DNA of 64,000 nucleotides from Dryococelus australis (Eukaryota > Arthropoda > Insecta > Phasmatodea > Phasmatidae). Numbering within the stretch: position 1 is the stretch's first letter; the number at the start of each line of letters is the position of its first letter. Where the stretch lies: positions 139,646,457-139,710,456 of the forward strand of contig CM056994.1 in the NCBI GenBank assembly GCA_029891345.1, given 5' to 3'. The position numbers and the translations under genes were made by a program. A model generated the notes under the pieces. The model made no database searches. It saw only the letters and a program-made list of their open reading frames with translations, and was not told the DNA's origin. Shown piece by piece: positions 12,241-55,050 of the stretch.

Positions 12241-13180
12241 CTACCATCCGAACCAAACATAGATTACTGAAATTTATATAAATTTATATATTTAAATATT
12301 AGATAAATAAAAAAAATGAGATATTACTGCTGCTGAAACTGGATTAAATCAAGGCTAAAATGAAATTAGATTGCAGGTTGCATTGCAGGTTGCGAGATCC
12401 ATGATTAAAATAATGCAAACATTAATTTCACTTTTTCACATAGCAATTAAATTTATACTGTAATTAGAACTTAATTTTTTCCTTGAGATGAGTGTTAAAA
12501 ATGCAATTATACTATTCACCACAAAAGATACTTGAATGATTTGTTAAATTAAAGTTATTTTGCTCCGCAACTAACTCAATTGGGTCAAGCTGAACCTCTG
12601 AGTCACTTCCGCAAAATATCATTTAAAACACTTATTATTCCTTTATAATTACTGCCACCTAAGGCACAAACATCTTAGAGAATGCAAAGGTAGGAATTTA
12701 TGACGAATGATTTAAATTCAAATGCCTTAAAACTTGATGGCATTACCTTATGCTGTGCTCCAAGCACTAGCCTGCATAATGTCGTCTCTGCGTACCTGTA
12801 GGTCCTCATAGGCTACTTCCACTAAGAATTTACCTACATAATTTCTGAAACTCAGCCGTCTTCATACTTGGCTGGTTCAGACCTAACTTTCACTTACTTC
12901 AGGGGAATAAATGAACTTAATAAATTATGATGAAGCCAAGGTTTTTCAACTAAAAATTCCGGCAAAAATTACACAGTTTGGACCCGCAAAGGTCCTTCCC
13001 CTAGAATCCCTTACTTCCGGCCACTCCTCAGTAACTCGCTTAATGGAGCACAACTACTTTTTGTCGAAATATACGTAACTGAATAAAATATTTAATACAA
13101 TTCAAAATCATAAAAAAAAAAATAATCAGGGTTTAAAATTAAAATAATCTCAGCAGCGAGTACACAGGGTACTATTAGCC
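12241..13180. other. AT-rich non-coding stretch
   Basis: Nothing supported beyond general AT-richness. Confidence 0.4.
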
Positions 13181-13196
13181 ACTGAGCTACTTTTGA

Positions 13197-13697
13197 CAAT
13201 ATATTGGGTGCTCTAGCCCCTGACCAGCTGCGGCCCAACTATTGGGTGCTCTAGCCACTGGGGTACTGAGGCCCTACTATTGGATTCTCTACCCACTGAG
13301 TTTCTGTGGCCCCACTATTGGGTTCTCTACTCATTGAGCAACTGCGGCCCCAATATTGGGTGCTCTAGCCCCTGACCAGCTGCGGCCCAACTATTGGGTG
13401 CTCTAGCCACTGCGCTACTGCAGCCCCACTATTGGGTTTTCTACCCACTGCGTTTCTGTGGCCCCACTATTGGGTCCTCTAGCCACTAAGCTACTGCGGC
13501 CCCCTTATTGGGTGCTCTAGCCACTGAGATAATGCGGCCCCACTATTTGGTGCTCTAGTCCCTGACCAGCTGCGGCCCTACTATTGGATTATCTAGTCCC
13601 TGAGCCTGTGTGGCACCCTTATTGGGTTCTCTAGCCATTGAGCTTCTGCGGCCCCCTTATTGGGTGCTCTACTCACTGGGCTACAGCCGCCCCACTG

Positions 13698-13756
<59 letters not shown>

Positions 13757-13800
13757 ACTGGGTCACTGCAGCCCCACTTTGAATAACTCTAGCCACTGGG
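13197..13800. repeat. 38-bp tandem array inside the Helitron-like element
   Basis: The unit reads roughly ATTGGGTGCTCTAGCCACTG followed by AGCTACTGCGGCCCCACT. Starts at 13,203, 13,241, 13,279 and 13,317 show the exact 38-bp period. About 13 units precede a TA run (about 13,700-13,755) and two more diverged units follow it. The second Helitron-like copy keeps only about three such units. Confidence 0.9.
13700..13755. repeat. (TA)n microsatellite within the 38-bp array
   Basis: Perfect alternating TA run. The position corresponds to a short ATATAT in the unit of the other Helitron-like copy, from which it probably expanded. Confidence 0.95.
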
Positions 13801-14150
13801 CCACTACGACTTTTTTGAAGGAAAGGTTTATTTCCCATAGACAAAAATGAAAGGAGAAATTACAGAATTTTTTTAACAGTCTTTTTTTTATTCAGTAATC
13901 ATAGGAAATGCTTTATCCAGTACCTATTTACATCCCTGATCATCATTTTTTCCGAAACCATTTGAGATGTATCGATGAAACAAAGACTAAGTTGGTCGTG
14001 GGATTTTTGAGTAAAATCCGTTCAGACAGACACAAAAAAAATTAACACAAGATTTGGCTTAGCTATCAATTATACTATATGAAAAAATAATGAAAAGTGA
14101 AACTTTCGAAAATCATAGACAGACACTTCTATTTTATTTAGTAGTTTAGA

Positions 14151-20330: not shown

Positions 20331-20432
20331 GAGGTCAGCTGAGAGACTTAGTTTGACAGCAGCTCCTGTGAAAGGCGGATCGTCTCGGTTATCTTCTGCA
20401 ACTTTTCTCAAAGTCTTATTCTGCATCAGCAA

Positions 20433-21710
20433 ATGTCTTCGGTTACTTCAGAGTTAATGGTAGCTACAGCAGTGCCATCAACGACTTCTTCGGGAGTGGT
20501 TGCATCAGTGCCATCGACATTTTCACATTTGTCGCCGACAACACCATCGACTTCTACGGGTCGGTCACCTACAGCAGTGCAGCCATCGATGGCTTCAGGT
20601 ATGACGTCGACAGCGCCATCGCGACCCAAGCCACCAGTGTCAAGACATCGATGCATGTACTGCGATGAAGCCTTTGCTAATAGCAGCAATGTTAGACGAC
20701 ATGAAAAGCATCCATACAATATGGACCCTTTCCACATGACATATAAGTGTGAGAAATGTCTTTATCTGTTTGCTCGTACTGACACACTATACATACATTC
20801 GAAAATATGTACAAGACCGGCTTCTCCACCAGCAAAACAAAGAGGTGTATTGCTGTCGCCATAAACATGCAATGGACTTACAAGTACTGCTGTGTACAAT
20901 TATGATGTCAAATATGCCCTCGCTACCTTGTACAGTAAGTGATGCAATGATGCTACCATCGGTGAGTGGGGATATGCTTGTGGACGGTATGGACAATTCA
21001 CTGTTGATATCGGCATGATCGTGTCGCTACTGTAGAAAAATCTTCAGAAAAAGCTGTCATACGCGTAGGCATAAGAAATGTAGTAAATGCAAGAGGAAGA
21101 CAAAATGGCCTAATTTTACTCTTGGCTGTCACATGTGTGGTCGTAAGTTCATGTGTTATGGAGTAAAAGGTATTCCAAACAAAGTGCGACTTGAAGTACA
21201 TAACCGTCAGAGAAGACAATGTCATGAGTAATATAACAACTATGATGAACAGTGTGAACCTTATACTCGAAAACCTGTCCATGTTCTAGGCAAAACTTAT
21301 GCCAGTGGATTTTTACTGAAGCAATCTGCAATCAGGGGCATGCTGAAATATCACGTTGCTCCTAATCTAACAGCTCGTTCCTGTCAAGTATGAAACAAAA
21401 TTTAATAAACCAACTTACAGAAGAGATTGAAGGGCATGGGCCTGTAAAATATAATACATTTCTGAAATGTATCTACACTAAATCAGAACAAATCAGGACG
21501 AACAATTCCGAATGACTTTCAAAACCCATAATGTACCACTCTGTAATGTATATGACATCGAATAGTATGTAGATGATAATATACAACTGTTATGTTTGCG
21601 AGGAAGAAGAAATGATGATGAAGGGTTCCAGCTGGAAACTCGATTCTGTAAATCATCTGCAGTTAAGATCTAGTGCAAACCAACCTCTTACGAAGTAATG
21701 TGATACCCTC
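20433..21710 (+). mobile_element. Polinton-like fossil gene with two zinc fingers
   Basis: The open stretch at 20,433-20,864 (143 residues) has a Ser/Thr/Pro-rich first half. A C2H2-type finger follows (C74, C77, H90, H93), then a C2HC-type finger (C106, C109, H122, C126). Further coding-like sequence follows, including another cysteine/histidine-rich patch near 21,020-21,150. At about 21,590-21,700 is a motif of the KGSSWKLDSV kind, matching the one at 5.4 kb. Zinc fingers ahead of this motif and a family B polymerase are typical of Polinton-like and adintovirus-like ORFs. Polymerase sequence itself was not found. The copy is broken, with several breaks, and looks old. A host zinc-finger gene is a less likely alternative. 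Confidence 0.5.
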
Positions 21711-26329: not shown

Positions 26330-27032
26330 AAAAAGGAAACAATTATTTTAGTGGGGTTCATCGAGTGTCGGTAAGACAAGTAGTTGTAATCGCATTTTAC
26401 AAGGAGCACGGATTTTTTATCCCGATGTTGGTAAACTTGCGTTCCAAGACCTTGACGAACGATATTATTATGTTATAGTGTATGAAGAGTATAGCCACGA
26501 ATACCACTGCTGTAGTTTTATAAAAAGATTATGCGAAGGTATGTCTGTTCGACTCCCAGTTAAAGGTGGTTTGGGTAATGTGATCAATTGGAAGAAACCT
26601 ATTTGGTTAATTTCCAATGACCTTCCACCTCAAAAGGATTGGTCTTTAAATCATGTAGTTGTAGTTGAAGCTAATAGAAGATACTGGGAGTATGAAAGGA
26701 GTCATGTGGTGAAGTCAGAACGCTTTGATGAGCCTGAGACTATAAGTGTGTCCTCTGATAGTTCTAATTCAACAATGAGTATAAGTGATGTGTTTGAAGG
26801 TTCTGCAGCTTTGGTTTTCGAAGAACATGTTGCAGGTCCATCCAATATTTCGCCAAAGTTAGATTCAGTGGTTCAAAATCGCAGTCCTACTCCTTGTTGG
26901 TCTGAATATGCAGATAAACATCCGGAAATAAATTTCCTTTTATTCAATAATATAAATAACATTTTAGTAGACACGAATTTTAAAATTATGTTTCTTCATT
27001 ATTTCGTTTCTATAAAACTATTGTTCTTTTAG
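26330..27032 (+). mobile_element. Rep-like SF3 helicase remnant (endogenous virus-like fossil)
   Basis: The 184-residue frame at 26,478-27,032, with related sequence just upstream, shows the SF3 helicase core of replication-initiator (Rep) proteins. A P-loop-like segment lies near 26,350-26,385. The 184-residue frame starts with an acidic Walker B-like YEEYS (hydrophobic residues precede it just upstream). A VKGG element follows, then the motif C-type strand IWLISNDLPP. The spacing and KGG element look most like Rep proteins of small circular single-stranded DNA (CRESS) viruses; parvovirus NS1 is the next-best guess. The Rep nuclease half was not recognised. After the helicase comes a Ser-rich tail. 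The copy is broken, with at least one break, and its age is uncertain. Confidence 0.6.
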
Positions 27033-29235: not shown

Positions 29236-29469
29236 TGTGAACACTTACTAACCATTTAAGGCGCGTGCTTTGAATCGCTCTGCAGAGAGGAACTTCAAAC
29301 GGAGACTGTTCATTGTATCGTGCATATTAGATGGGAATATTACTTCTAAAAATAAATTACTTCATAATAATGGAACTATTTCATACACAAACAGAAGTCA
29401 AATAAATATCATGCCAAATTTATCTTTTTAAAACCAAACCTAAATAATAGATGAAACTTTAAAATTGTT

Positions 29470-29559
29470 TAATGCCTGTGTGTATATATACGTACATCCA
29501 TGTTTATATACACACAGTCATATATATACTCATATATATATATATATACACACACACAT
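29470..29559. repeat. TA/TG-rich simple repeat, left half of an interrupted microsatellite
   Basis: Mixed TATA, TGTG/CACA and CATG words run right up to the left end of the Polinton-like element. The same kind of sequence resumes directly after its right end (43,715-43,910). Confidence 0.7.
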
Positions 29560-29565
29560 GTATAC
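29560..29565. repeat. Candidate 6-bp target-site duplication, left
   Basis: GTATAC, compared with GTATAA at 43,709-43,714 (five of six match). Six bases is the duplication length known for Polintons. Confidence 0.5.
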
Positions 29566-32345
29566 AAGATGTTCGGATATTACACGCCCAAAATACGGGA
29601 AGTAACTCTTAATGAAAAATAAATTCGATAAAAAAAAGGACATCATATAACTAAACGGAATATGAAAGAAGATATGAGACAGTAAATATTGGGTTTTGAA
29701 AATGTATTTTCGCCGAATACTTTGTACAACGCCTACAAAGTCCGCAACAGAAAGGAGATAGTAGTAGGGGTGTAGAGGTTCTGGACCAAATGGGATTAAT
29801 AATTAATATCCTATGGATTATCGGGTTAATTGTTTGAATTATCGCACGTGGATTAAATTGCGGCAAATTCGAGGGAACGGTTTGAGTGTATGAAGGGTTA
29901 ATCCATAATTCCTTTAGTTTTTTATTGTTAATTGTTTAATTGGTGTTGAAAGGATTAAGTGCCATCACGACTATTTTAAGGAAGTAGCATATGACTTTAC
30001 CCTTGGATGTATGGCAGGTGACTGAGCTCTGTCGTTTGCAGGCAGCAGTATATATGTGTTGAACTTGGTGCAAGAGTGGCATAAGGATAATTTGTGGCAC
30101 AAGTGGCATATAAGTAAATTTATGTCCATCGTCGGCAGAGTTAGAGCATGTACTGGGGTAGGTTGCTGGGCGAAAGGAAGTAGGGGATGTCGAGAGCATC
30201 AGAAGAGCACCAAGACACGTCCGTTCTGTTCAGAGGTTAGTGGAGGAATGATCTGGGATGTAGGAAGAGGGGAGGCAGGGGCCGTCGGGAATACTAAGAC
30301 AAAACTGTTTGCTGTCATACTGAGCTCTACATAAGTGAAATGGCGAGCGACTGAGGTCATAAATTCACAATTGCAGAAATGTAATAAATCAGTGTTTTAA
30401 AATATCCAAATATAACACCTATCACAGAAACAGGAAATAATTACAAATCCAACAACATAAAATTATTACCAAATGAGTGATATTAAATTTTTGAGTTGTA
30501 GAAAACCAAATAAACTAAGAAACAAATTATCAATAAATGACAAACATGACACATTTACTAACCACATGTAACAAACTAAAAACGAAACCTATTCACACGC
30601 AACAAGATGCAAAATTTCACTGCACAGCTACAGAACCAATTTAATAAATGAAATATATGACTAGAAAAACATTAACCAAGCAAAAAGACAGTTTTCAGCC
30701 CCACCTTCTATAGCTGTTTCCCAGCAATATGAACGTCATAATAACATTTACTAATCACACGCAACAAATGCTGACTGAATTAACACAATAAAAATACTAA
30801 TTACACTCAAAGAAATATAATTTATCACAAACAACAGGTCAAATCAATTAAAACATAGAAATGTACAACCAGCCATAAAGAAATACCACTTAAAAATGAT
30901 TTTTACCAGAAACATGAAATATAATTACTAACTAAACACAAAGAGACTTAAAATTACACAAAACAAGTACTAACCACAAGTAACGAGATGATTTCCATTT
31001 AAACACAAGCAAGGAACAAAACATATAAAATCTTACCCTAAAATGTGATTACACTAAACACCTGTGATGCACAGGCAACGAGATGTAGAATTTCAAGTTA
31101 CAACTATGAACCATATGTAAAGAATGAATTATATTACTAGAAAAATACTAAGCATGCACAAAGTTAGTTTACTGTCCCATCCTGTTTCCCTATCAATATA
31201 TAAATGTCATAACAACATATTTACTAATCACATGCAAATTACGTTTAAGCCTAGCACATCCAGGTCCTCCTCCTTCATAGTCTCTCACTAATGCATCACG
31301 TGCCAACCCGGCTTGCAGCAACTCGAGTCAGACTTCTTCGCTTCAGCTTATCCACTCTAACTTCAGCACTATGTCACACATTTCCCGCTAGTACACATTT
31401 TGCTTAATAAATGTACAAACTTAATTACCTATCGTGCAAGTATGACTGTAATGTGTTGAAAGGAGCAAAGAGGGCCTGCCTTATGTGCTCTGTACAGGCC
31501 ATCCAGTGTCTGCATTGGCCATGCGTGCATATCTAAACTGAACCATTACAGCTGCTTGTGTTAGAGAGTGCTGCCTCTATCTCTCTCCAGCTCCCTCTCT
31601 CGCTCTCTCTCTCTCTCCCACCATCTGCATCAGGGTGTTGGCTAGCAGCATGTTGAATATTCCAATGACATATCCCAACTGATATTAAAAATTGAATTAT
31701 GTTCCCACTAACTTTAACCACCACAACTTCAAGAAATATATCATTACAAGTAAAGAAATATAATGTATAAAATATAGCAATGAACTAAACAAATATCATT
31801 AATTGCACATTATTTTTAAATATCAGAGCATATACTCCACGATTGAATATTGTGCAATTCGCTGACCACCCTCAAAACACCATTGCCCTCACCTACACAC
31901 TGTGTTTCAAAATAAATAAATGCCTTTGTTACAGTGTAAGTGTGTGTTAACTATTTAAAATATTTAAGTACTTAAAGAATATTTTAAAGTAAAATATGCT
32001 GAATTTTTTTATGAAACTATTTCCTACTGCCAGAGCATGGGGTGTTAAGCATCGTTTTCACATAGAGCAATCATTTAAGTCCCATTAAAAATATATGTAT
32101 CTGCTAACATAAATACATATGAAATTTATTAAATATATGAGACGTCACACATTGTGCTACATAACTCGTAGATTTAAGTTATCCAACAGACATTATTAAA
32201 CAAGTAATTTTATCACAGCATTTTCTAAGTATGCTACACAAAATCTTGGTACTTTGCAAGATTTGTATTTGTCAAAAATATATTTTATCGAAAATCCACA
32301 AGTTTTTAGCATCACATGTCAACACCTAGACTGTGAATATTAATT
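29566..32345 (+). repeat. Left inverted terminal repeat of the Polinton-like element
   Basis: Aligns in inverted orientation with 40,815-43,708. Anchors: 29,587-29,602 with 43,668-43,690; 30,205-30,350 with 42,750-42,920; 31,140-31,260 with 41,845-41,965; 31,470-31,520 with 41,630-41,680; 31,940-32,340 with 40,820-41,215. Similarity stops at about 32,345. The repeat is non-coding and contains an internal ~475-bp duplication and a CT-rich tract near 31,580-31,620. Confidence 0.8.
30595..31260. repeat. ~475-bp internal duplication within the left TIR
   Basis: The stretch from 30,595 (CACACGCAACAAGATG, then AAATTTCA, ACTAGAAAAACATTAA and the GTTTCCCAGCAATATGAACG region) recurs from about 31,069 (CACAGGCAACGAGATG, and so on). 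The right TIR shows the corresponding doubled pattern, near 41,870-42,005 and 42,345-42,490. Confidence 0.6.
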
Positions 32346-34529
32346 TGTAAAAGCAAACATTTCCACACAGGTATAAAATGTATTTGGAAACTGAATCATA
32401 CAATAATTTTTATCTGAATAAAGATTGTACGCCACTGGTTTAAATTGTGTGTAAATCTATATGTTATAGTACAAACATTAAAGGGCAAGCAGGACAAAAG
32501 TCATCGCATGGCATCAGTAGACATTCATTCCTCCGTGCAGCTATTGTAAGTTTACCATTGGTCCACGGACCCACAAACCGACATCTGAGCAGTTGAAGCA
32601 TCCTCCAGCCAACTTTCTCTCCCTCACTCTGTTTCTCTCACTCCTACCACAGCCGCCGCTATACAGGAATGCATGCATTTCCGTTAAGAAATTTTATAGT
32701 TAAGAAACCATATATATGCAACTACTACCAAATTAGTTTCCTGAGTGGGATAAAAAATTTTATTTTATTTTGAAAAACATCAGACAAGCCTAAGTTTTGG
32801 AAATTCTAATGTAAGATTGGCATATGCACTCGGCTTCGAGTTCTGGTTCGATTATGTGGGTGACTACTTACAGATGTGAGCTCGCTAATGTCTGTCACTC
32901 AACTGATGTGTTAGAGTTAGGCTGGTATGCCGGTACACCAAAGCATAAATGTAAGCATAAATGGAAGCATTAGTCTACACATAAGCAGCAATTCACTAAG
33001 TCCATATGTACAGCAACCACGATGGTCACTCGTCAACTAAACACCAACAAAGAGAATAACATATATGTAATTATTATTGCAGTAAACAGACACCAACAAC
33101 TCCATACCTAACCCATATGCATATAAATGTAAGAATGAAACACAAATTGTTGTGATTTCAACTATACTTGCTTACAGAAAATCCAAATCTTTACTCTTAT
33201 TACACATTGCAGAGGAACCAAAGGATGTTGCAGTGCACGAACTTAAATACCAATGCATTTAAGATATTTTTAGATAGAACCCCCTTGCATTAATGAATGT
33301 TAGGTTCGCCCATCCAAAGGGAATGCTAATGGCAAAACAATGCAACAAATAATTACACAGAGAAGATTCTGACTAACAGAACAAGTAAGTTAGGGTACAA
33401 AATTGTAAACATATTTCAATATTACAATGTATATTATAAATGCAGGTGTAACATTCTTATATGTGTATGTAAAAGAATTAACCATTACATAAATAGTTCA
33501 TTCACTGCATCATTCGTTCACTACATCGACCATTCACTGCATCATTCATTCACTGTAACATGATATATTTAAAAGAGGTGGAACTCACTTAAACAACATA
33601 GTACTGAAATGATACACAGAGGGGGATTTAAATTATTAAACCTAATAATTAAAATTGCAAACCATTATATTTATTACTTACTTTTTCAAGTACATTTACA
33701 GATTTCACAAAAAACCTTATTCAACAGATTTTTTTAAAGATCATGTAAAGTAGGTTTGGTATTTAACACATTTCTACTATGTTGATGAGACTCATAAGCT
33801 TTTAAATAACACAGATTGGAACCATAATTTAGTTTTACTCTCTCAGCTGTTAAGTTGTTGAAAAAAGGATGATGGCTTGGAAGGCAAAACACCCCTCGCA
33901 TACAAACAGTTGTTGTTAATGATGTAGATGCGAGATGCAGATCGCTGTTAGGAAAATAGGGAAGTGCACCATGCGGTCCAGCAGATAGGAATGAAATATC
34001 CAGTGGAAACAGGTTCGTTGTTTGGTATAAGTGCTTATGCTGCAGAACCTTGTAGAGTAACTATATGCTTTCGTATCAGTTATGTTTACCAAATATTGAC
34101 AAATGATGTAGTTAGTGATGAAGACAAGACCTCGAATAATGAATGGCAAACCAGAGATTTTATACAGTGTAACCTTAAACCTAATAGTTCACCTACACTA
34201 TGCATGGTACATCTAGGCAAACAAGAAAACAAACTTTAATATATATCTGAATAGAGCTTGTAAAAAATAATATCACATAGTTGCGCAAGGACTATATCTT
34301 ATGGGCATTGGTGAGGGAGGGCTAGGAAAAGTTTTGGTGAAGCAGGAGACATAGGACTGTAGCTTATGGAGATGTGTGAAGGTACGAATGGAGGAGGGAG
34401 CAGGAATCATAATACCGAAGAATTTTAAAGTTTAAAAATGGTGCCAACCTGATCTGGATTACCATCCCCATACTCTTAGACCTTACCTTCGGAATGGTAA
34501 GGTATAAGGTCTTAAACTTTGTGCTAACA
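32346..34529. other. Inner part of the Polinton-like element, left, no recognised gene
   Basis: Mostly AT-rich, with a mixed-composition patch at 32,480-32,670 and a short CATTCACTGCAT repeat at 33,485-33,555. An open frame at 33,964-34,239 has no recognisable relative. Confidence 0.4.
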
Positions 34530-34594
34530 CTATTCAATACCAACCATTGTTAAATCAAGAGGCATATCTTGTTCTATTAACGCTACCTGAACCA

Positions 34595-34865
34595 TCTCAA
34601 CCATCTCCTCTAAAGCAGGCATCGTCTCCTCCAAGACAGGCATTGTCTCCTCCAAAGAAGGTGTTGTCTCCTCCACAGCAGGTGTCGTCTCCTCCACAGC
34701 AGAATTCGTCTTCTCCATGGCAGGCATCATCTCGAAGGCAGGTGTCATCTCCTCCATGGCAGGCGGTGTCTCCTCCAAGTCAGGCATTGTCTCCTCCATG
34801 GCAGGCATCGTCTCCTCCAAAGCAGGTGTCGTCTCCTCCAAGGCAGGCATCATCGCCTCGACAAG
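34595..34865. repeat. 21-bp minisatellite, open on both strands
   Basis: About 13 units of TCTCCTCCAAGGCAGGCATCG-like sequence with an exact 21-bp step. Because 21 is a multiple of three, both strands stay open. The minus frame at 34,530-34,967 reads a 7-residue repeat (EETMPAL type), and the plus frame reads an SSPPxQA-type repeat. The minus frame has flanking unique sequence at both ends and could be a low-complexity protein of the surrounding element. Nothing shows that it is expressed. Confidence 0.85.
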
Positions 34866-34869
34866 AAGC

Positions 34870-37800
34870 GCATGGTTCGTCTCAAAGAAACCCAATCCAA
34901 TAACCCCATCAGTGCTCCATGAAAGGATCTGGAGATGGCATATTAGCACGAAAAGTATCCCAGTCAAAACTCTTAATCTCCTGCTCGAAAGCCTGCGACA
35001 AGCCTATGTAATACTCCTCATAGGACGACATAGTAACTGTAACACACGTGCAAGTGAAATACTATGCTATGGTATACATTAAATAAGGTAGACAGATACG
35101 AAGACTATACCCCCATTTATAAGAATTTTCAAAACTACCAGTGAAATGGTTATGAACATTCATGCATTAGCCAACCCCTCTTCATGTCCATAGCTTCAAA
35201 TGTTCGATCCCTACCCAATGAGAAGTCAAATGTTTTCCATGGCATATAAATTTCTTAAACATACATGTTAAATTATTAACTAAATGATCTAGATAGTAAC
35301 CATCATAAACACATTTTCATAAACCCTTAAATTCGATATTCTTGTTTATAATCATTAAAAAAATATGCAGTGTGGAGATACATAAAATTTATAATCAGTA
35401 GACCCTTACAAATTAATTAAACAAAAAACAACAGTTATTGTCTAAAAATTATAATTACAAAAATATTTACTGTAACAAATGGATTTGCGTATAGTAGTTA
35501 AACTGTTACACAGATTCAGACCTCCTTCATGGTTTCAGTACTACAACTCAATGATTTTATAATAATATTATTAAATTTTTAAAGGAAACCATGTGTTTTA
35601 TTGTGAGACATTCCATATTCCCTTTGAAGAGTTTCAGATAGTCAGTCTTTAATGTTGTGTACACTAACAATAAAATTTAGTATCACAGATTATGATTCAC
35701 CAGTTTTCCATATCCATTAAAACATGTGAAACCCAACATATTGTTCACGAAATTTTAATAATTTTCCCTGTTATAGCTAAAAGAAACTTTTTATCTGCCA
35801 CAAACTAACCTTAAAAAATTTTAAATAAGTAATTGGAACACAAACCTCCCCGTTTCTAACTTAACACTTTAAAATAATTTTCACGGGTTTAATTGTATTA
35901 CCTTAAACATCTAAATTTAACTTCAGTTAATATGTATTCGAGACAAGGATCTACCATCATGTTTACACTAAAGATTAAATAAGTGTGTTGCAGCTATATT
36001 CCAACAAGGAGGGATTCATCTCTGAGTAAGCCAAAAGTCATATTGTTTAGTTGAAGTATAGTATCCATAAAGTAATTTAGTGTTATAATGTATAAAACAA
36101 TATGCTTTCTGGTAAGCAATATGTGTTAAACACATTATAAGTCATTACTACTAAACAGCTAGGATGTGAAGTCTACATAGAAACCATTACGAGACATACA
36201 GCTCAACCCTCTTACCTTAACACTATTTCATTTCTACCTGCTAAGTTACCTGTAAGTGTCACATCACATTGATGTAATTATTGTATGTCTTTCTCTCGTA
36301 AGACATTATATCTCATGTAAGATCGTTAGCATTGTTAACACATTTTTTACTCAAACAAGTAGGGAACATGTATATATAATTATGAATCATTAGGTGTAGT
36401 AAATTAAAATATGTTTTTGTTTAATAACTCAATGAGTGCACATTACAGGATGCAAGTCGGTTGACTGTGCTTAGCAGCGGTAGGGAATGCGCGAGTGGTA
36501 CAATGCCTTCGGCGGCGACAACAATTTATTTTGGGTGCTGCTGTAGTGTCCAGTCTGCCTGTCCAAATAAGGTCTCCGACACTAGTATGCTTGCTCCAGT
36601 ATGTATTTGTAGATATCGACTTCAACGGTATTGACAGCACCATTGAGAATACGCACTCTACTACGAAACTCACACTGACTGCAAGCTAGCTATAAAGCTA
36701 GTAATGTTATGTTCGAAATATATCAAAATTATGTTGGGAGTTGGATTCAATGTTACTTATGACCAGACATTTCATAATACTAATTTTGTACGCAAACTCA
36801 TTGTTTCCTCTTTGAAACAATATGTAATGTAGCAATATTATGTGTTTTAATGCAATTTGTTTTAGGATTACATTATATATATATATATACTCTGTAATAC
36901 ATAATTTTGTAAATCAGTTTTTGGTATATATTCAAGTTATTGTCAAATGTATAACTGTAATAGGATTGTTTAACCGTTATTCAGTGGCATGTAGTTACTT
37001 TTATTTAACAGGGTAAACAATTTATACTAGAGATGCAAATTCCAACATTGCTTACCCTCCACATGGACTTACTGTTTTATAGTATATAACATTAGTTATA
37101 AAAACAGAAACAAAATTAATGTAATAATAATTAAATTGAACATTATTTAGATAGCATATTGCAAATTATAAGAAAACTCCCATTTTCCTGAACACTTTCA
37201 TCCACTTTCCAAAGAAAAAAAGTAGGACTGGAGAATGCAAACAGAACGACTGCTTAGCCTGCAGAATGAACGGTGTCGAGTGTGTGGTGTGTTGTTCTTG
37301 CGAGTTCGATTCATTGCTAGTCACTCCCATTTGTGGAAATAAATACTAGATAGAACCATTGTGTGAATACAGTACAGGAGTTAGAAAACTCTTGTTTTTT
37401 AAATATAAAATGGAGAACTCAGTATTAAATGTGTTTAAAGTTAAGGCAAAAATTATAAAGGGTCAAACATTTTCAATATGTATGGGGTAAGCATTGCTTA
37501 CCTTGTGTCTATGGAATAAACACCACTGCCATTAATGAATCTGTTCAGAGATTTTACTTTGACAAATATTAGTGGTTAATTTGCTTGCTTCCTTGGCCAT
37601 TTATTATCTTAAAAACAATATGTTGCCCTGTGTTAAACTCATGGGGTTCTTAATTGAAGTGATTGTTTTATGGTTCCATTTACATATTTTAAAGATATTT
37701 TCTTAGAAATGTAGATTTTAACTTAACTGCCTACTTTATATCTGTATTTACTATTATGCAAAATACACATTTCTTATTTTAATGTGCATGGAATGCAAAG

Positions 37801-39120
37801 GCTTATATATATTTTCGTTAAATATAATAGCACAGTAATTTATTCATTCTAAAATTAATAAGTTTACTGTTTCGATCGACCATCATAATGACGTTTCTCA
37901 ATATGATTATCTGTTACTGGAAAATAGATCAAAGTACTCTGTTTATCAATTATAATTATTATCCTGGAGCCACCGCACACATGAGTTCATGTATTGTGTT
38001 TGTTGGTTTTCCATTCAAATATGAACCACCTACAATATTTACATTTACATGGCACATATTAACTGACCAAATGTAAATCTGTTTTGATGGTTCATCCAAA
38101 TGATTAACGGAATATATTCTCTGTTCATAACCTAACATAATTAGAATTGAATTGTTTTTTTGAAATTGATATTGATGTTACTGTTTTTATATGAGTTTAA
38201 GTACTTAGATATCCACATAATCAGTTATGTACATTTTCAGTTAATGCTGCCTTCATGAATGTTTCCAAATTGTCTAGTTCATATTTTAGTTTTGCAGACA
38301 TTTAAATGTTGACTGTTATTATTTGTCCCAGAGTTACAAATATATTCCAAAACATAATTTGTGCAATAATGCAAATATATTAATCATATTTCAAATGGAC
38401 AATTTGAATCCACAGCATATTTTTAATGATCATATAATGGCCGATATGTCAGTTGCAAAATTCAAAGATATATATGTTTACTATTGGAAAGAGAGGTATG
38501 GTTTTCTGGTAATCATGCCTGCACTTCCCCTAATAAACTGAGATATAATTGTGGATTTCATTATTTTATATTTCCTGACAAAGAATTATGAGTATTTCAA
38601 AGTTAGACATAGCGTATGTATGTATAAAAAGATGGATTAATGCATTAGTAACGGTTAGTATTGCAGGTCAACTTGTATCATAGTTGGAAGAAATGTTACA
38701 ATATATGAGTGTTGAACTAATGAATTAAACATTGTGTTTGATTAGACAAACAGAACTTGGGAAAGCACAAAATGACTGTTTGCAAAACTGAATAATGCTT
38801 GTTAATTATTACTTGAGAAGTAGAATTAGAAGTAAATTAGTTGCAGTATTGAGTATAGTCGATAATATTGAAAAAGGCCCAAACTACTCAACCTATTGTT
38901 ACAACCTAGAAAACCCATTACTTAGTTCATATAAATACTGGAATGTTGTATAAACTTATCAAAAATATCTAAATCTGCTTCGGAATTACATAATGTTATA
39001 TCTTCTGTAAAGGAGAAATATTTGTAAGCTAAATGGGCAGGAATAGAGCAGATGCTTTAAATTAAGTAATATTTAAAAATGTTACAATTAGAATGGATAC
39101 AATACTTTCTGCATTAACTA
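34870..39120. other. Inner part of the Polinton-like element, no recognised gene
   Basis: AT-rich and largely without credible coding sequence. A GC-richer pocket at 36,445-36,690 has opposing short frames. Short plus-strand frames at 37,888-38,076 and 38,323-38,541 sit upstream of the integrase region on the same strand and may be decayed element genes, but I cannot assign them. Confidence 0.4.
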
Positions 39121-39121
39121 T

Positions 39122-40555
39122 GTATATTTAACACCACTGGGAATTAAATCAGAAGAACCTTTAAAGAAGATGAACATGCAAGTCCTTTCTCAGTTAAAAC
39201 AACATTATTTATCTTTGAAACATTCTTTGCCTGCATACAATACAACATTTGACATATATCAACTTGGTAACATAAGGTTCCTGGGAGAGTCTGTCATTAA
39301 GTTCTTACCTGAAAATATAATTCAAGTAAGGGATTATAGAACTGATGTGAGTGAAGGATTGATTAAATTATTGTTTTAAAACTTTCTTAATGGTTAGTTA
39401 CTCTGACACCAATATGGAAAAATATAGGGAATTTGTAAAAAATGCAAATGCAAATAATTGTTCAAGTGACAAACATCACCCAAAACTATATTTATTAGGC
39501 AGTATTATTAGTGGATTACACAAAGATGAAGGTGGCGATCGGTCTTCTCCTATTTACTGGAACAAACCTAATGATTTGGTGAACATATTAAAACTTCCCA
39601 TTGCTTCTAAACAATCTCGGAAAAATTTACATACAAACAAAATTGTGTCTTTTATTGAAGAGCTGACTGAAAAATATATACTTGTTATGAAGTTCAGTAA
39701 GATTGCTAAAGAGCAGCATGCTGCTGCAAGAATAAGGTTTACTAGAAGAAGGATTATTGCTCTGGGAATGAACAATTTGTTTGAAGCAGATTTGTGTGAA
39801 ATGACATTGATTCGAAATACAAATGTTTATTTTAACCATGATAGAGATATATTCAAAATATGCATGGGATGTACCTGTGAAGAACATGATTGGAAAACAA
39901 GTCACTGCTACAATGAAAACCATTTTAGAATAAAGAATACCAAAACTACTCCACACCAACAATAGAATGAAGTTTTTTAATTGTTCTTTCTAGAAACTAA
40001 TGACACAGTATGGGATTAATAATTATGTAAAATTTTCTGAAATAAAAGTGACCATAGTAGAACATTTCAACAAAAGTTTATAACATCTAATATAAAAAAT
40101 TTCACTTCACATGGAACTTATAAGTGGGTGGACATTTTGCTTGAAATACTGAAATTTTATAATTCAAGATATTATAAGAATATCAAGATGGCACCCGAAA
40201 AGGTTATGGACAATATAATGATGAAAACAGTATATAATAATCCTAAGGTAGTCGAAAGGAGAAAAAAAAAATGTATGTTGGATAATATATGTGTATTTCC
40301 TTTGTTAAAGGTGTTTTTCAGAATACATATACTGTTGGTTGGTTGTATGAAATATATAAAATTATTTCAGTTATACGGTTATTTCCTAGAACATATAACT
40401 TTGTAAGCTATAATGGTGAATCCATAAAAGGTGGTTTTTATAAATTTGAATTACAGAAAGTTAATTTTCCAAATGAATATTTAGTTGATAAAGTCCTTAA
40501 GAGCAGAAAGCAGAGAGCATTGTTTCGTCGGAAAGGTTTTGACAAAAGCTCATGA
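39122..40555 (+). mobile_element. Integrase region of the Polinton-like fossil
   Basis: Plus-strand coding remnants occur in family order. The piece at 39,170-39,379 carries LPAYNTTFDIYQL, FLGE and LPENIIQVRDY. The piece at 39,390-39,965 carries YWNKPNDLVNILKLPIASKQ, an IEEL segment, then RFTRRRIIALGMNNLFEADL, the entry into the retrovirus-like integrase core. The piece at 40,289-40,555 carries GGFYKFELQKVNFP and VLKSRKQRALFR, a C-terminal chromodomain-like tail. Together these are the hallmarks of Polinton/adintovirus-type integrase ORFs in animal genomes. The gene is broken, with a handful of breaks. It ends about 260 bases before the right TIR, matching the usual terminal position of the integrase. 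Confidence 0.75.
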
Positions 40556-40814
40556 TTTGTGCATGAAATTCAAGATCTTCAGAGATTATACAACAATATT
40601 TGTAAAGATTTTTTGCAATAAAGCATTTTGATATAATGTATGTGTTTTCATTAAGTGTATTAATATGTTACATTCTTTATTAAGATGCAACAATATGGTA
40701 TACTGATCATTGCTTGTATTGCCCTTACTTGCCTCTCCTTCTGTATGCTATTATAAATCTTTAATATTAGAGGATATATTATACTTTGGCATGGCTAAGA
40801 CTTTATGGTGTAAC

Positions 40815-43708
40815 AGGACTGCCTGTTCAGTTAGGTGTTGACATACTACATTAAAATATTTTGGTTTTTTATATAACTTTGACAAATATAAATCTTGTTA
40901 TGTGCCAATATTTGGTGTTGCATACTTTGAAACTGCCATGATAGAATAACACATTTTAGTAATGTATGTTGTGCATCTTAAATCTACTAGTTATGTAATA
41001 CAATGTGACACTTAATATATATAATAAATTTTAAATGTATGTTAGTTAGCAGATACATATATTTTTTAATGAGATTTAAAGGATATCTAACGACACATGC
41101 TATGGTGGTTGGAAAACAGTTCTGAATATAATTCAGCATATATTACATCGAAATATTTTTTAATTGTTACAGTACTTGAACCTTTTTAAATAGTTAACAC
41201 ACACTTACATTATAACAAAGGTATGTACATATTTTATAACACAATGTGTAGGTGATGGCAGTGGGGTGATCAGAGTGACCAGTGAGTGGTGCAATATTTA
41301 ATTTACCATCAGTAGCTAGGGATACATTGTGGAGTAATTGCCCTGAGATATGGTATATTGTTCGATTAATGAAAATTGTATAGTTCATTGCTATATTTCA
41401 TAAATAATAAATTTCTTTACCTATAAAGTTATCCTTCTGGAATTGTGGTGGTGAATGTTATTTGGCATGTAATTCCATATTTAGTATCAGTTGGGAAGTA
41501 ACATTTGAACATTCAACTACTTGCTAGCCAATGACCTGATGGGTAAGGTGAGAGAGAGGGGGATTGAGAGAGAGGAAGTGTGCTCTACCACAATCAGCAT
41601 TAATAGTTAAGTTCAGATATTCATGCATGGCCAATGCAAACACTGGATGGCCTATACAGAGCACACAAGGCAGGCCCTCTTAGCTCATTTCCACACATCC
41701 CAGTCATACTTGCACAATAGGAAGTTAAGTTCTTACATTTATTAAGCAAAATGTGTATTTGTGGGAAACATGTAACATAGTGCCAAAGTGAGAGCAGATA
41801 ATGTGAAGTGAAGAGGACCGGCCCTAGTCACTGCAAACAGGATGAGCATGTAATGTAAGTTGCATTTGATAAGTAAATTTGTTGATATGGCATTTATATA
41901 CTGATAGGTATACAAGGGGGCAGTTAACTAACTTTGTGCGTGCTTAGTATTATCTAGACATAATAATTCATTCGTAACATGTGGTTCGTAGTTGTGTAAT
42001 GAAATGTTATGCTAAATTGCCTGTGCATTGAAAGTGTTAAGTGTATTTGTATTTGAGGGTAAGTTGTTTTTATGTTGATTTTTCCTTGCTTGTGTTTACA
42101 TGGAAGTTGTCTCATTGCTTGTGGTTAGTACTTGTTTTGTGTAATTTTACATCTCTTTGTGTTTTGTTAGTAATTATATTTAATGTTTCTGGTAAATTGT
42201 ATTTAAGTACTAATTCCTTGTATCTGGTTATACATTTCTAGGTTTTAATTTATTTTTCCTGTTGTTTGTTATAATTTATATTTATTTGTGCATAATTAGT
42301 AATTTTTGAAGGGTTGTAATTCTATCAGTATTTGTTGCATGTGATTAGTAAATATTGTTATGACATATATATTGCTGGGAAACAGGTGTATTGGATGGGG
42401 CTCTAAACTGACTTTGTGCTTGGTGAATATTTTTTCATCAAATATTTTATTTGATATTTTTGGTTCATAGTTGTGTCATTAAATTTTTTTTCTCCTTGTG
42501 TGTGTATAGATTCGTTTTTATTTTGTGGCATGTGGTTAGTAAATGTGTCGTGTTTGTCATTTATTAATTTGCTACTTAGTTTCTGTAGAGCATGTAGAAC
42601 ACAAAAAATTAAATTTTGTGTGTTTGGTAATAATTGGATGTTGCTGGATTTATAATTATATTATGTTTCGGTGCTAGTTGCTATATTTGGATATTTTAAA
42701 ACACTGGTTTTTTACATTTCTCTAAATGCACATTTCCGATCACATTCACTCGCCATTTCACATATGTATAGCTCAGTACAAAAGCAAAAAATTCTGTATT
42801 GGTGCTTCGTCACATAATCTTACGTCCCAGCTCATTCCTCTACTGACATCCGAACTGAAAAGACATGTCTTGGTGCTCCTCTGATGATCTCGACATACCC
42901 ACGAGCCCCTCTCCAGCAACCGAAATAAAGTACACACACTAAACCTGCCAATTATGGAATTAAATTTACTCTTATGACAATCTTACTGCAAATTACCCCA
43001 ATGCAACTCTCCGCCAAGGTTAACACACACATGCTGCTGCTCATACACCTCAGAGCTAAGTCGCCTGCAGACATCCAAGGTGAAGATCTGTGCTGCTCCC
43101 CCAGAATATCCATTTGACATTTAATAATTCCAACATCAATTAAACACTTAATGCTATAAAAATATATGTTAAAGGATTAACCTTTCATGCACTTAATCCG
43201 TTGCCTCAGATTAACCACAATTTAATCCGCATGCGATAATCCAATCTTATTAATCCGATATCTAAACAATTAATTCGATAATCTATTAATTAACCCCAAT
43301 TAATCTCAGGTGGCCCAGAACGTACATGCTCCCACTACTGGTGACTTTTTATTCCAAATTGCATAGATACATGCGTAATGCTGACCGTCCTCGGTCTGTG
43401 CCCACGCTTCTATTTGAGGAATCAGTACGTCAGCATATCAACGACAAGTCCTCCACTAGTACATGCTCACAGAGTGCTAAATGGTTGTGTCCTTTGTGTG
43501 GGACGTGCTGCGGGCATATCGCCGCCATCCCTACCGCTGGCAGAAAAAACAAGGCATTTAGTGAAAATAAGTTTTTAATAACCATTTTCCACAGGATCAT
43601 ATCTCTATTAACATTCTTTTTAGGTAAACGGAGTCCTGTATATTTTCGAATTTATTTTTCATAAGCAATGACATCCCGTATTTTGGGCGTTTAATTTCTG
43701 AACAGCCT
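40815..43708 (-). repeat. Right inverted terminal repeat of the Polinton-like element
   Basis: Inverted partner of 29,566-32,345 (anchors listed there). The outermost bases read inward are AGGCTGTTC. Polinton termini commonly begin with AG. Non-coding. Confidence 0.8.
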
Positions 43709-43714
43709 GTATAA
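43709..43714. repeat. Candidate 6-bp target-site duplication, right
   Basis: GTATAA, directly after the element end and one base different from GTATAC at 29,560-29,565. Confidence 0.5.
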
Positions 43715-53200: not shown

Positions 53201-53942
53201 TGGCCGAAGAAAAATTGTGGGCCTACACAACTGACCTTACTATGGTTAACTTCAGGCACCAACACACTTGGCATGTCATTCATGACCCACTGATGGAATG
53301 TTGATGGAAACGATATTGACGGTTGAGAATGGATGACCTTTTAATGGTCCATAAATGGCTTACCAACTGTATTCCAGCAATGGCCGCATACAACCTATAC
53401 TTATTGCTGGTAACAGTGTGGATAGCCATCTATAATAGGTCATTTTATGGATGTGAAGTGGAATATCAATCGACCATTGTTGGTGCGTTTTGGCTTATTA
53501 AAGGAATTTTTGTGGCTACCACTCTTCGCAGATAGCGTATTCAAACTACACACACATATGTATATATGCGTGTCTAATATAATATGCTGTATATACAGTA
53601 TTAGTTGTGACTTCATGATTGGTATTGAATAATTTGACATATATAATGTTTTACATGTATAACGGTATGTAATTAAAATGATAAGTTAACAAAACAATAT
53701 ATTACCGCCTTTAGAAAATTAACATTGAAGGGCTTTTGTTGTTACACTTCACTAAAATATTCATCTCTGGCGACTGCATTTCAAAACAGATAAATAGCAT
53801 CCAGGTGTCATACATACGGCGAAAGATATCTTACAAAGTTTTTGGGTTAATATCGCGATTCATGTTGGAATATTCCTCTCGACGACAGTGTTTTTTTCTA
53901 TCTGTATCTTTTTAAAAAACTGATTTGTTCACATGGTAAATT
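53201..53942. other. Non-coding stretch
   Basis: No supported feature. Open frames at 53,323-53,640 overlap on both strands and look like chance. Confidence 0.4.
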
Positions 53943-53946
53943 TTAA

Positions 53947-54338
53947 GGCCAGACTTTACCATGCATGGGCGGATGGGGCATCAAAGGCTAAATTCAGACA
54001 AAGATCTGTGTCTTTTTTTTTGTGGTAAAATTTTCAACTAAAGGTTTTTTGTTGGAAAATGAACTCATCTAGATTTGTAAACCTTCCAAATTTTATTTTT
54101 AAAATTTAAAATGTATGTTTTTATAAATTATACAATTGTAACATTTTATAAATAATTAAAAAGAGCATTTAAAATTTGAAAATTAAAATTTGAATTGTTT
54201 ACAAATGTAGATGCGTTCAATCTTAAACTAAAAAAAAAGCTTAGTTGAAAGTTCCATCACAAAAACTGACTGAGAGATATTTGTCCAAATTTAGCCTTTG
54301 ATTCCCTATACGCCCATGCATGATGATGATGCGTGGCC
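53947..54338. mobile_element. Foldback MITE with TTAA target duplication
   Basis: The arms at about 53,947-54,100 and 54,185-54,338 are inverted copies. Shared words read inward are GGCCA/GGCCAC, CATGCATGGGCG, TCAAAGGCTAAATT, TTTCAACTAA and TCTAGATTTGTAAAC/TCTACATTTGTAAAC. TTAA flanks both ends exactly (53,943-53,946 and 54,339-54,342). TTAA is the target of piggyBac-type transposases, so this is probably a piggyBac-mobilised MITE. The ~80-bp AT-rich centre encodes nothing. Confidence 0.75.
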
Positions 54339-54342
54339 TTAA

Positions 54343-55050
54343 GATTACAGAATAACTGCTGTAGCGTATATTATTTTAGTGTTTATTAATAATTAAAGTA
54401 AGAATATATTCTAAATAAATTCATCAAATATAATAATACACATTTGAGTAATTGTTAGCATGCTGGGCTGTCAATGTAAGGGCTCCTCCGGTAAGCATAA
54501 GATTTCCATGTCGTATAATATAAAAAGTGTTATATATATATATATATGCAAAAAAATTTTTATTTTTAACTATTTTATTCATATATGGCTTGTTATTTGG
54601 TTATTATATATGTTTGACTTGATAGCCCATGGCATTTCTTTACTTTGAATTTTTTTTAGTTTGTACAACCATCTGACATATATATAAAATGAACAAAAAC
54701 TATTTTGTTTGCAAGCCTCAGAATAAATTAATGTTAAATAATCCATGTTTTAAAATTTTTTTGTTATATTTTCATGAAATTAATACATTCCTTTATAATT
54801 ATTTGTGTCATAGTATATTCGAAATTACTTGATGGCATCAGAAACATTCTCTGTTGAGTATAGGTTATCATGGTTGACTGTCAACTTAATGTTCTTAGGT
54901 TCGATTAACGCACTTGGTAAGCAACATATTTTCTTATCGTATAATATGTTGAAAAGGTAATGAATTGAATATTTTTAAATATGAAACAACCATTACTAAA
55001 ATTTTAAATCCAATAAATTAAAGGCATTTGTATGATCATACTGCTTCTTT
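54343..55050. other. AT-rich non-coding stretch
   Basis: Contains a short TA run at 54,532-54,547. Nothing else was recognised. Confidence 0.4.

Follow-up and report, generated by a model that had tools for sequence, protein, structure and literature searches.

The closest described counterparts of the element analysed here are the vertebrate Mavericks, the Polinton-like viruses of protists and the insect adintoviruses; what we say of them is limited to the portions of the reports available to us. Intact vertebrate Mavericks have terminal inverted repeats (TIRs) of 46-1,447 bp, with a mean of 402 bp, and (AGT)2//(ACT)2 is one of the two end motifs reported for them (PMC8097293). Polinton-like viruses of protists are described as having 'hundred-to-thousands base pair' TIRs, some together with 6-bp duplications (PMC4642659, PMC12220804), and insect adintoviruses measure 13.3-14.6 kb and have PolB, integrase and capsid genes (PMC8363768). 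Here, we describe an element located in a 64,000-nucleotide stretch of the genome of Dryococelus australis (contig CM056994.1, positions 139,646,457 to 139,710,456; hereafter the window, whose numbering is used throughout). We are highly confident that it is a decayed Polinton/Maverick with kilobase-long TIRs, which belongs to a multi-copy family, inserted into a pre-existing miniature inverted-repeat transposable element (MITE) and lacks genes probably because of deletion.

The inserted element occupies positions 29760-43339 (13,580 bp), begins with AGTAGT, terminates with ACTACT and lies, flanked by a 6-bp duplication, inside the MITE. Its surroundings comprise the following features:

29565-29759, no strand assigned: left part of the MITE, ~0.2 kb, preceded by TA at 29563-29564; delimited by the joined-flank search and an alignment of five copies

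43340-43709, no strand assigned: right part of the MITE, ~0.37 kb, followed by TA at 43710-43711; delimited by the joined-flank search and the alignment

29754-29759, plus strand: left copy of the target duplication, GGAGAT, with two changes relative to GGTGAC

43340-43345, plus strand: right copy of the target duplication, GGTGAC

The borders were determined using an empty-site query of 567 bp, in which both outer flanks were joined with one 6-mer omitted, and which was run against the genome (3.4 Gb, 646 contigs). Among the best 40 of 1,624 loose candidates, all 39 other scored places cross the join, with starts at 1-75 and ends at 510-567 of the 567 bp and identities of 76-79%; the remaining candidate is the right MITE half of the window itself. 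The ends of the copies match each other in inverted orientation over ~165 bp, and the five aligned copies carry TA at their ends. The outer element therefore fits a MITE in its size of 567 bp, its inverted repeats, its TA target and its many copies; judging from the TA sites, we take it to be of the Tc1/mariner type and presumably mobilised by such a transposase. Of the five aligned copies, three have GGTGAC as the 6-mer at the join, one has GGTGAT and one TGTGAC. In the window, GGAGAT precedes AGTAGT and GGTGAC follows ACTACT, so that a 6-mer that is single in the empty MITE is doubled here, which indicates that 29760-43339 entered the MITE with a 6-bp duplication. The initial annotation had set the ends of the element at 29566 and 43708, with ~2.8-kb TIRs and a 6-bp duplication at those points. 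Those ends have to be abandoned, since the outer parts are the MITE halves; the duplication exists, but at 29754-29759 and 43340-43345 and not at the MITE ends; and the TIRs keep their unusual length but not their exact size.

The two arms, measured from AGTAGT and ACTACT, are as follows:

29760-32350, plus strand: left TIR, ~2.59 kb, beginning AGTAGT, with an outer end common to other copies

40827-43339, minus strand: right TIR, ~2.51 kb, terminating ACTACT, with an inner end ~230 bp past the integrase

The inverted match between the arms is real and far above chance. Local alignment of 29402-32475 with 43871-40627 gave a score of 2,560 over 2,883 aligned columns (78.9% identical), compared with 124-184 for ten 3-mer shuffles, 178 for the reversed arm and 113 for the direct orientation; the long inverted match of the initial annotation, whose failure had been named beforehand as refuting it, thus stands. 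BLAST returned the arms (29819-32333 with 43260-40828, 72.9% over 2,565 columns) separately from an outer pair (29524-29725 with 43754-43549, 71.8%), and this split was the first hint of two elements end to end. The inner end of the left TIR was placed where the similarity of other copies stops (32272-32347 in the longest), and sub-repeats are present inside this TIR (30591-30764 with 31067-31237, BLAST). The genome search with the TIR that had been proposed as a check did reveal other copies: 1 kb of the left arm, used as query, gave 51 matches from the best 40 of 1,634 loose candidates. In ten other copies considered together with their flanks, similarity to the window does not extend outward beyond 29760 in left-arm coordinates; in right-arm coordinates, the copies that reach furthest end at 43339-43355. 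Differing boundaries of other copies had been named beforehand as a refuting outcome, and they overturn the coordinates of the initial annotation while leaving its biology in place. AGTAGT is exact at the outer end of six of these ten copies and is also found in three further arms (L035, L036 and L042; in L035 an indel separates it from the first BLAST match), that is, in nine of the 13 other arms examined. As a separate observation, a MITE-like piece is present at L017:2626-2876 (C5:187.24 Mb), ~2.7 kb downstream of where another arm begins.

Next to the right TIR lies the only gene remnant recognised in this copy:

39092-40590, plus strand: broken rve-type integrase with a chromo-like C-terminus, its frames interrupted by stops and frameshifts

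The integrase region recognised in the initial annotation was corroborated through a sister copy, L039, whose unbroken frames match the window in tblastn searches with 61.8% identity over 89 amino acids (39826-40092), 46% (40047-40424) and 50% (40292-40588). The integrase core of L039, an unbroken 125-amino-acid frame, matches PF00665 (rve) at 2.6e-14 (Pfam), and by this homology the remnant in the window copy is the retrovirus-type integrase expected of a Polinton/Maverick; the match of the chromo-like end is weak (0.014, Pfam). The integrase region recurs in 39 other places with 72-79% identity (best 40 of 3,788 loose candidates). Together, the AGTAGT ends, the 6-bp duplication and the integrase homology uphold the Polinton/Maverick identity originally proposed, and the end-motif TIRs and the duplication are those of this class.

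The layout of the family was derived from the first 40 matches of each of three arm searches and of the integrase search (scored candidates: best 40 each of 1,634, 369 and 290 for the arms and of 3,788 for the integrase), with later, smaller pieces (11, 27 and 13 for the arms and 8 for the integrase) left out of the counts. Among the matches listed, clustering yielded 75 distinct arms, most of them without a partner. All seven arm pairs within 40 kb face outward, namely the window pair and those at C17:180.79, C17:255.41, C2:123.83, C5:161.59, C6:72.18 and C7:8.62 Mb, and none faces inward or in the same direction; as far as the matches reach, they span 12.7-33.7 kb. Likewise, the nine arm-integrase neighbours within 20 kb are all on the expected side and in the expected direction (two belong to the window and seven come from six other integrases). 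The adjacency of right TIR and integrase is also seen in L035 and L036, where the integrase end adjoins the inner arm end and extra sequence lies inside the arm. The arm-integrase-arm layout is hence found elsewhere in the genome. Each arm of the pair at C17:180.79-180.81 Mb measures at least 2.0 kb, or 2.2-2.5 kb with the smaller pieces added. That TIRs of unusual length occur in many copies across the genome is supported.

The initial annotation found no other core gene, which holds for the window copy but not for its family. The sister copy L037 on C4 contains, between its integrase and its left end, two double-jelly-roll capsid pieces (PF21738, 1.1e-17 and 3.2e-12, Pfam), which point to the presence of such a capsid in the family; the order of this copy is an ACTACT left end, the capsid pieces, the integrase and part of a right arm. 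The capsid pieces gave no match to the window in tblastn searches. A PolB frame was found ~3 kb inward of an arm at C17:61725623-61727887, with 30% identity over 366 columns (E 8e-42) to the frames of L038, which match PF03175 at 2.7e-21 (Pfam), and short PolB fragments are present in L023 and L011. PolB and capsid-like sequences are abundant genome-wide (for PolB, 91 of 6,288 loose candidates were scored and gave 54 matches), so PolB only probably belongs to the family. The sister's capsid pieces and the PolB frame near another arm suggest that the window copy is a defective member of a more complete family, and they do not support a distinct lineage with an integrase only. We read the absence of PolB from the window copy as a loss, its membership being based on the remaining features and on the family. 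A stretch common to L018 and L028 was considered as a polymerase gene and dropped, since its alignment did not read as polymerase. Of 18,148 loose candidates for capsid-like places in the genome, 126 were scored and all 126 matched above the Pfam cut-off; the genome seems to be heavily populated by Polinton-like elements.

The interior of the window copy contains the following features:

33100-33750, plus strand: left interior belonging to the family, parts of which are found just inside the left arm of other copies

34476-35003, no strand assigned: short tandem repeats carrying open frames on both strands that resemble chance ones, a family part with a counterpart in L037

36982-37529, no strand assigned: later inserted repeat of ~548 bp, very abundant, with a tRNA-like motif by eye; that it is a short interspersed nuclear element is a guess

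37596-37600, no strand assigned: probable deletion point, from the alignment with L037

In place of the 955 bp at 36645-37599 of the window, of which 548 are the later repeat, L037 contains ~2.9 kb including the capsid pieces, and a deletion in the window is likelier than an insertion in L037. The ~548-bp repeat is present in 39 other scored places with 81-85% identity and the same ends (4,258 loose candidates), and in L011 its flanks, 36975 and 37534, almost touch. Left-interior pieces lie immediately inward of the left arm at C1:279.35, C17:237.17, C17:255.42 and C5:161.61 Mb, and also occur in L018; the view that 33.1-33.6 kb is a later insertion was withdrawn, as this region adjoins the left arm in other copies. 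The Rfam scan of the window gave nothing at gathering thresholds, and Pfam searches of ten window pieces, none of them aimed at the packaging ATPase, protease or minor capsid, gave only sub-threshold matches.

These data bear on the possibility that the missing genes were never there, that is, that a non-autonomous lineage consisting of TIRs and a decayed integrase, without polymerase or capsid, multiplied as such instead of losing genes after insertion. The pair at C7:8.6 Mb, whose span of 13.5 kb is near the length of the window element, and the numerous copies of the integrase region would fit this. However, the capsid-bearing L037 has much of the same interior, the other pairs span 12.7-33.7 kb, and for the interior at 33.1-34.3 kb the genome yields no more than 57 loose candidates, with patchy matches; we therefore consider such a lineage unlikely. 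Far less probable still is that two copies of a dispersed 2.6-kb repeat came to lie inverted by chance around an integrase fossil, without forming a single element. Many arms are indeed partnerless (75 clustered arms and 7 pairs among the matches listed), and the window arms are no more similar than arms of different copies, but both outer ends stand at one 6-bp duplicated site within one MITE, close pairs face outward only, and the integrases adjoin the right arm (again among the matches listed). The uninterrupted MITE copies and the empty-site 6-mer make two chance repeats very unlikely, and they rule out the originally reported ends. Thus, a single 14.1-kb element at 29566-43708 with 2.8-kb TIRs and a duplication at those ends can practically be dismissed: inverted similarity of 71-72% reaches those points and TGTATA is present at both (29559-29564 and 43708-43713), but only its TA recurs there in MITE copies, the outer parts form one 567-bp family that is unbroken in all 39 other scored places, and other arms lack these parts beside AGTAGT.

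It should be noted that several findings weigh against a decayed Polinton/Maverick. The hallmark PolB was not found in the copy (no match of the L038 frames to the window at 1e-3 in tblastn searches), and the link of PolB to the family consists of one good frame (30%) together with two short pieces close to arms, in a genome rich in PolB. The window's own integrase piece reaches only 0.12 against Pfam rve and fails the cut-off. Exact AGTAGT is absent from four of the 13 other arms, three having near matches (AGTAGA at C17:61.7 Mb, and only the part TAGTGGG at C5:187.2 Mb and on C11) and one, on C13, none. The left duplication copy is mismatched at two of six positions, and a target duplication could be read for the window copy only. 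Finally, the right arm of the C4 sister is recognisable only partly.

Based on our current knowledge, the history of this decayed Polinton/Maverick was very probably as follows. The MITE was in place first, and the element then integrated into it: a retrovirus-type integrase, which we infer to have been that of its own family, made a staggered cut, joined the AGTAGT ends to it and thereby doubled the 6 bp GGTGAC. In the family, a left TIR (~2.5 kb) is followed by an interior, the integrase and a right TIR, with the capsid and probably PolB in the interior of fuller copies. The window copy presumably held the missing genes formerly and, by analogy with other Polintons, may have replicated by protein priming. 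Decay followed, in which the integrase was broken, the later repeat inserted, and the capsid and polymerase regions disappeared, probably by deletion.

With respect to age, a gap-tolerant aligner gave identities of 0.80-0.805 for the window arms, 0.76-0.84 for arms of different copies and 0.823 for the C7:8.6 Mb pair. A shuffled arm gave 0.728 with the same aligner, over 879 columns instead of ~1,500, so these identities are inflated and Kimura two-parameter values are unusable as ages; among the inflated identities, there is no clear surplus of within-pair over between-copy arm likeness. With gaps counted, BLAST gave 77.7% between the C7 arms and 63-66% between these and the window. An old burst of insertions might weakly be suggested, as it would fit the arm likeness, and the C7 BLAST figures speak against it. 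It is conceivable, though in our opinion less likely than not, that the family represents a separate animal Polinton lineage in which kilobase-long, non-coding and internally repetitive TIRs are present in all members as a functional trait of the clade (e.g. as a replication origin or regulatory region), most copies stemming from one old burst.

Other features were observed in the window. An open frame of 226 amino acids at 26352-27032 (plus strand) has a Walker-A-like start, GSSSVGKTS, and gave nothing at 0.1 in Pfam; by eye, we take it to resemble the superfamily-3 helicase of small DNA viruses. A C2H2-type zinc-finger frame at 20352-20864 (plus strand; PF00096, 1.1e-4, below the cut-off) has 44% identity over 63 amino acids to a frame beside PolB in L038, and is perhaps a remnant of another Polinton. 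A 0.4-kb palindrome at 53939-54346 (BLAST), an inverted pair of ~0.4-kb repeats (13755-14149 with 47557-47105) and a tandem array at 13176-13696 are probably other repeats.

In summary, using the MITE as an empty site allowed us to determine, with single-base precision, where a badly decayed Polinton ends and which target bases were duplicated, and the case cautions that inverted similarity extending outward from a TIR may be the TIR of another element. The element resembles the vertebrate Mavericks in its (AGT)2//(ACT)2 ends, its 6-bp duplication, its rve integrase beside one TIR, and its size, which falls inside their 12.7-24.6 kb. It differs from them in its TIRs of ~2.5 kb, as against 46-1,447 bp, and in the lack of a recognisable PolB and capsid in the window copy (PMC8097293). 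The family is hence an animal Polinton family with TIRs above the range given for intact vertebrate Mavericks in the available part of that report, and in the literature covered by our search, about which alone this speaks, no report of TIRs of at least 2 kb in animal Polintons turned up. The insect adintoviruses, described from fly sequencing as possible viruses, are comparable in size and gene content (PMC8363768). The Polinton-like viruses share kilobase-scale TIRs with our element, a likeness that rests on how their TIRs and duplications are described, whereas their hosts are protists (PMC4642659, PMC12220804). Since such TIRs are already in print for these viruses, as far as the available portions of the reports go, the long TIRs do not define a new kind: the arm length is unusual among the animal Polintons compared, and the kind of element is ordinary.

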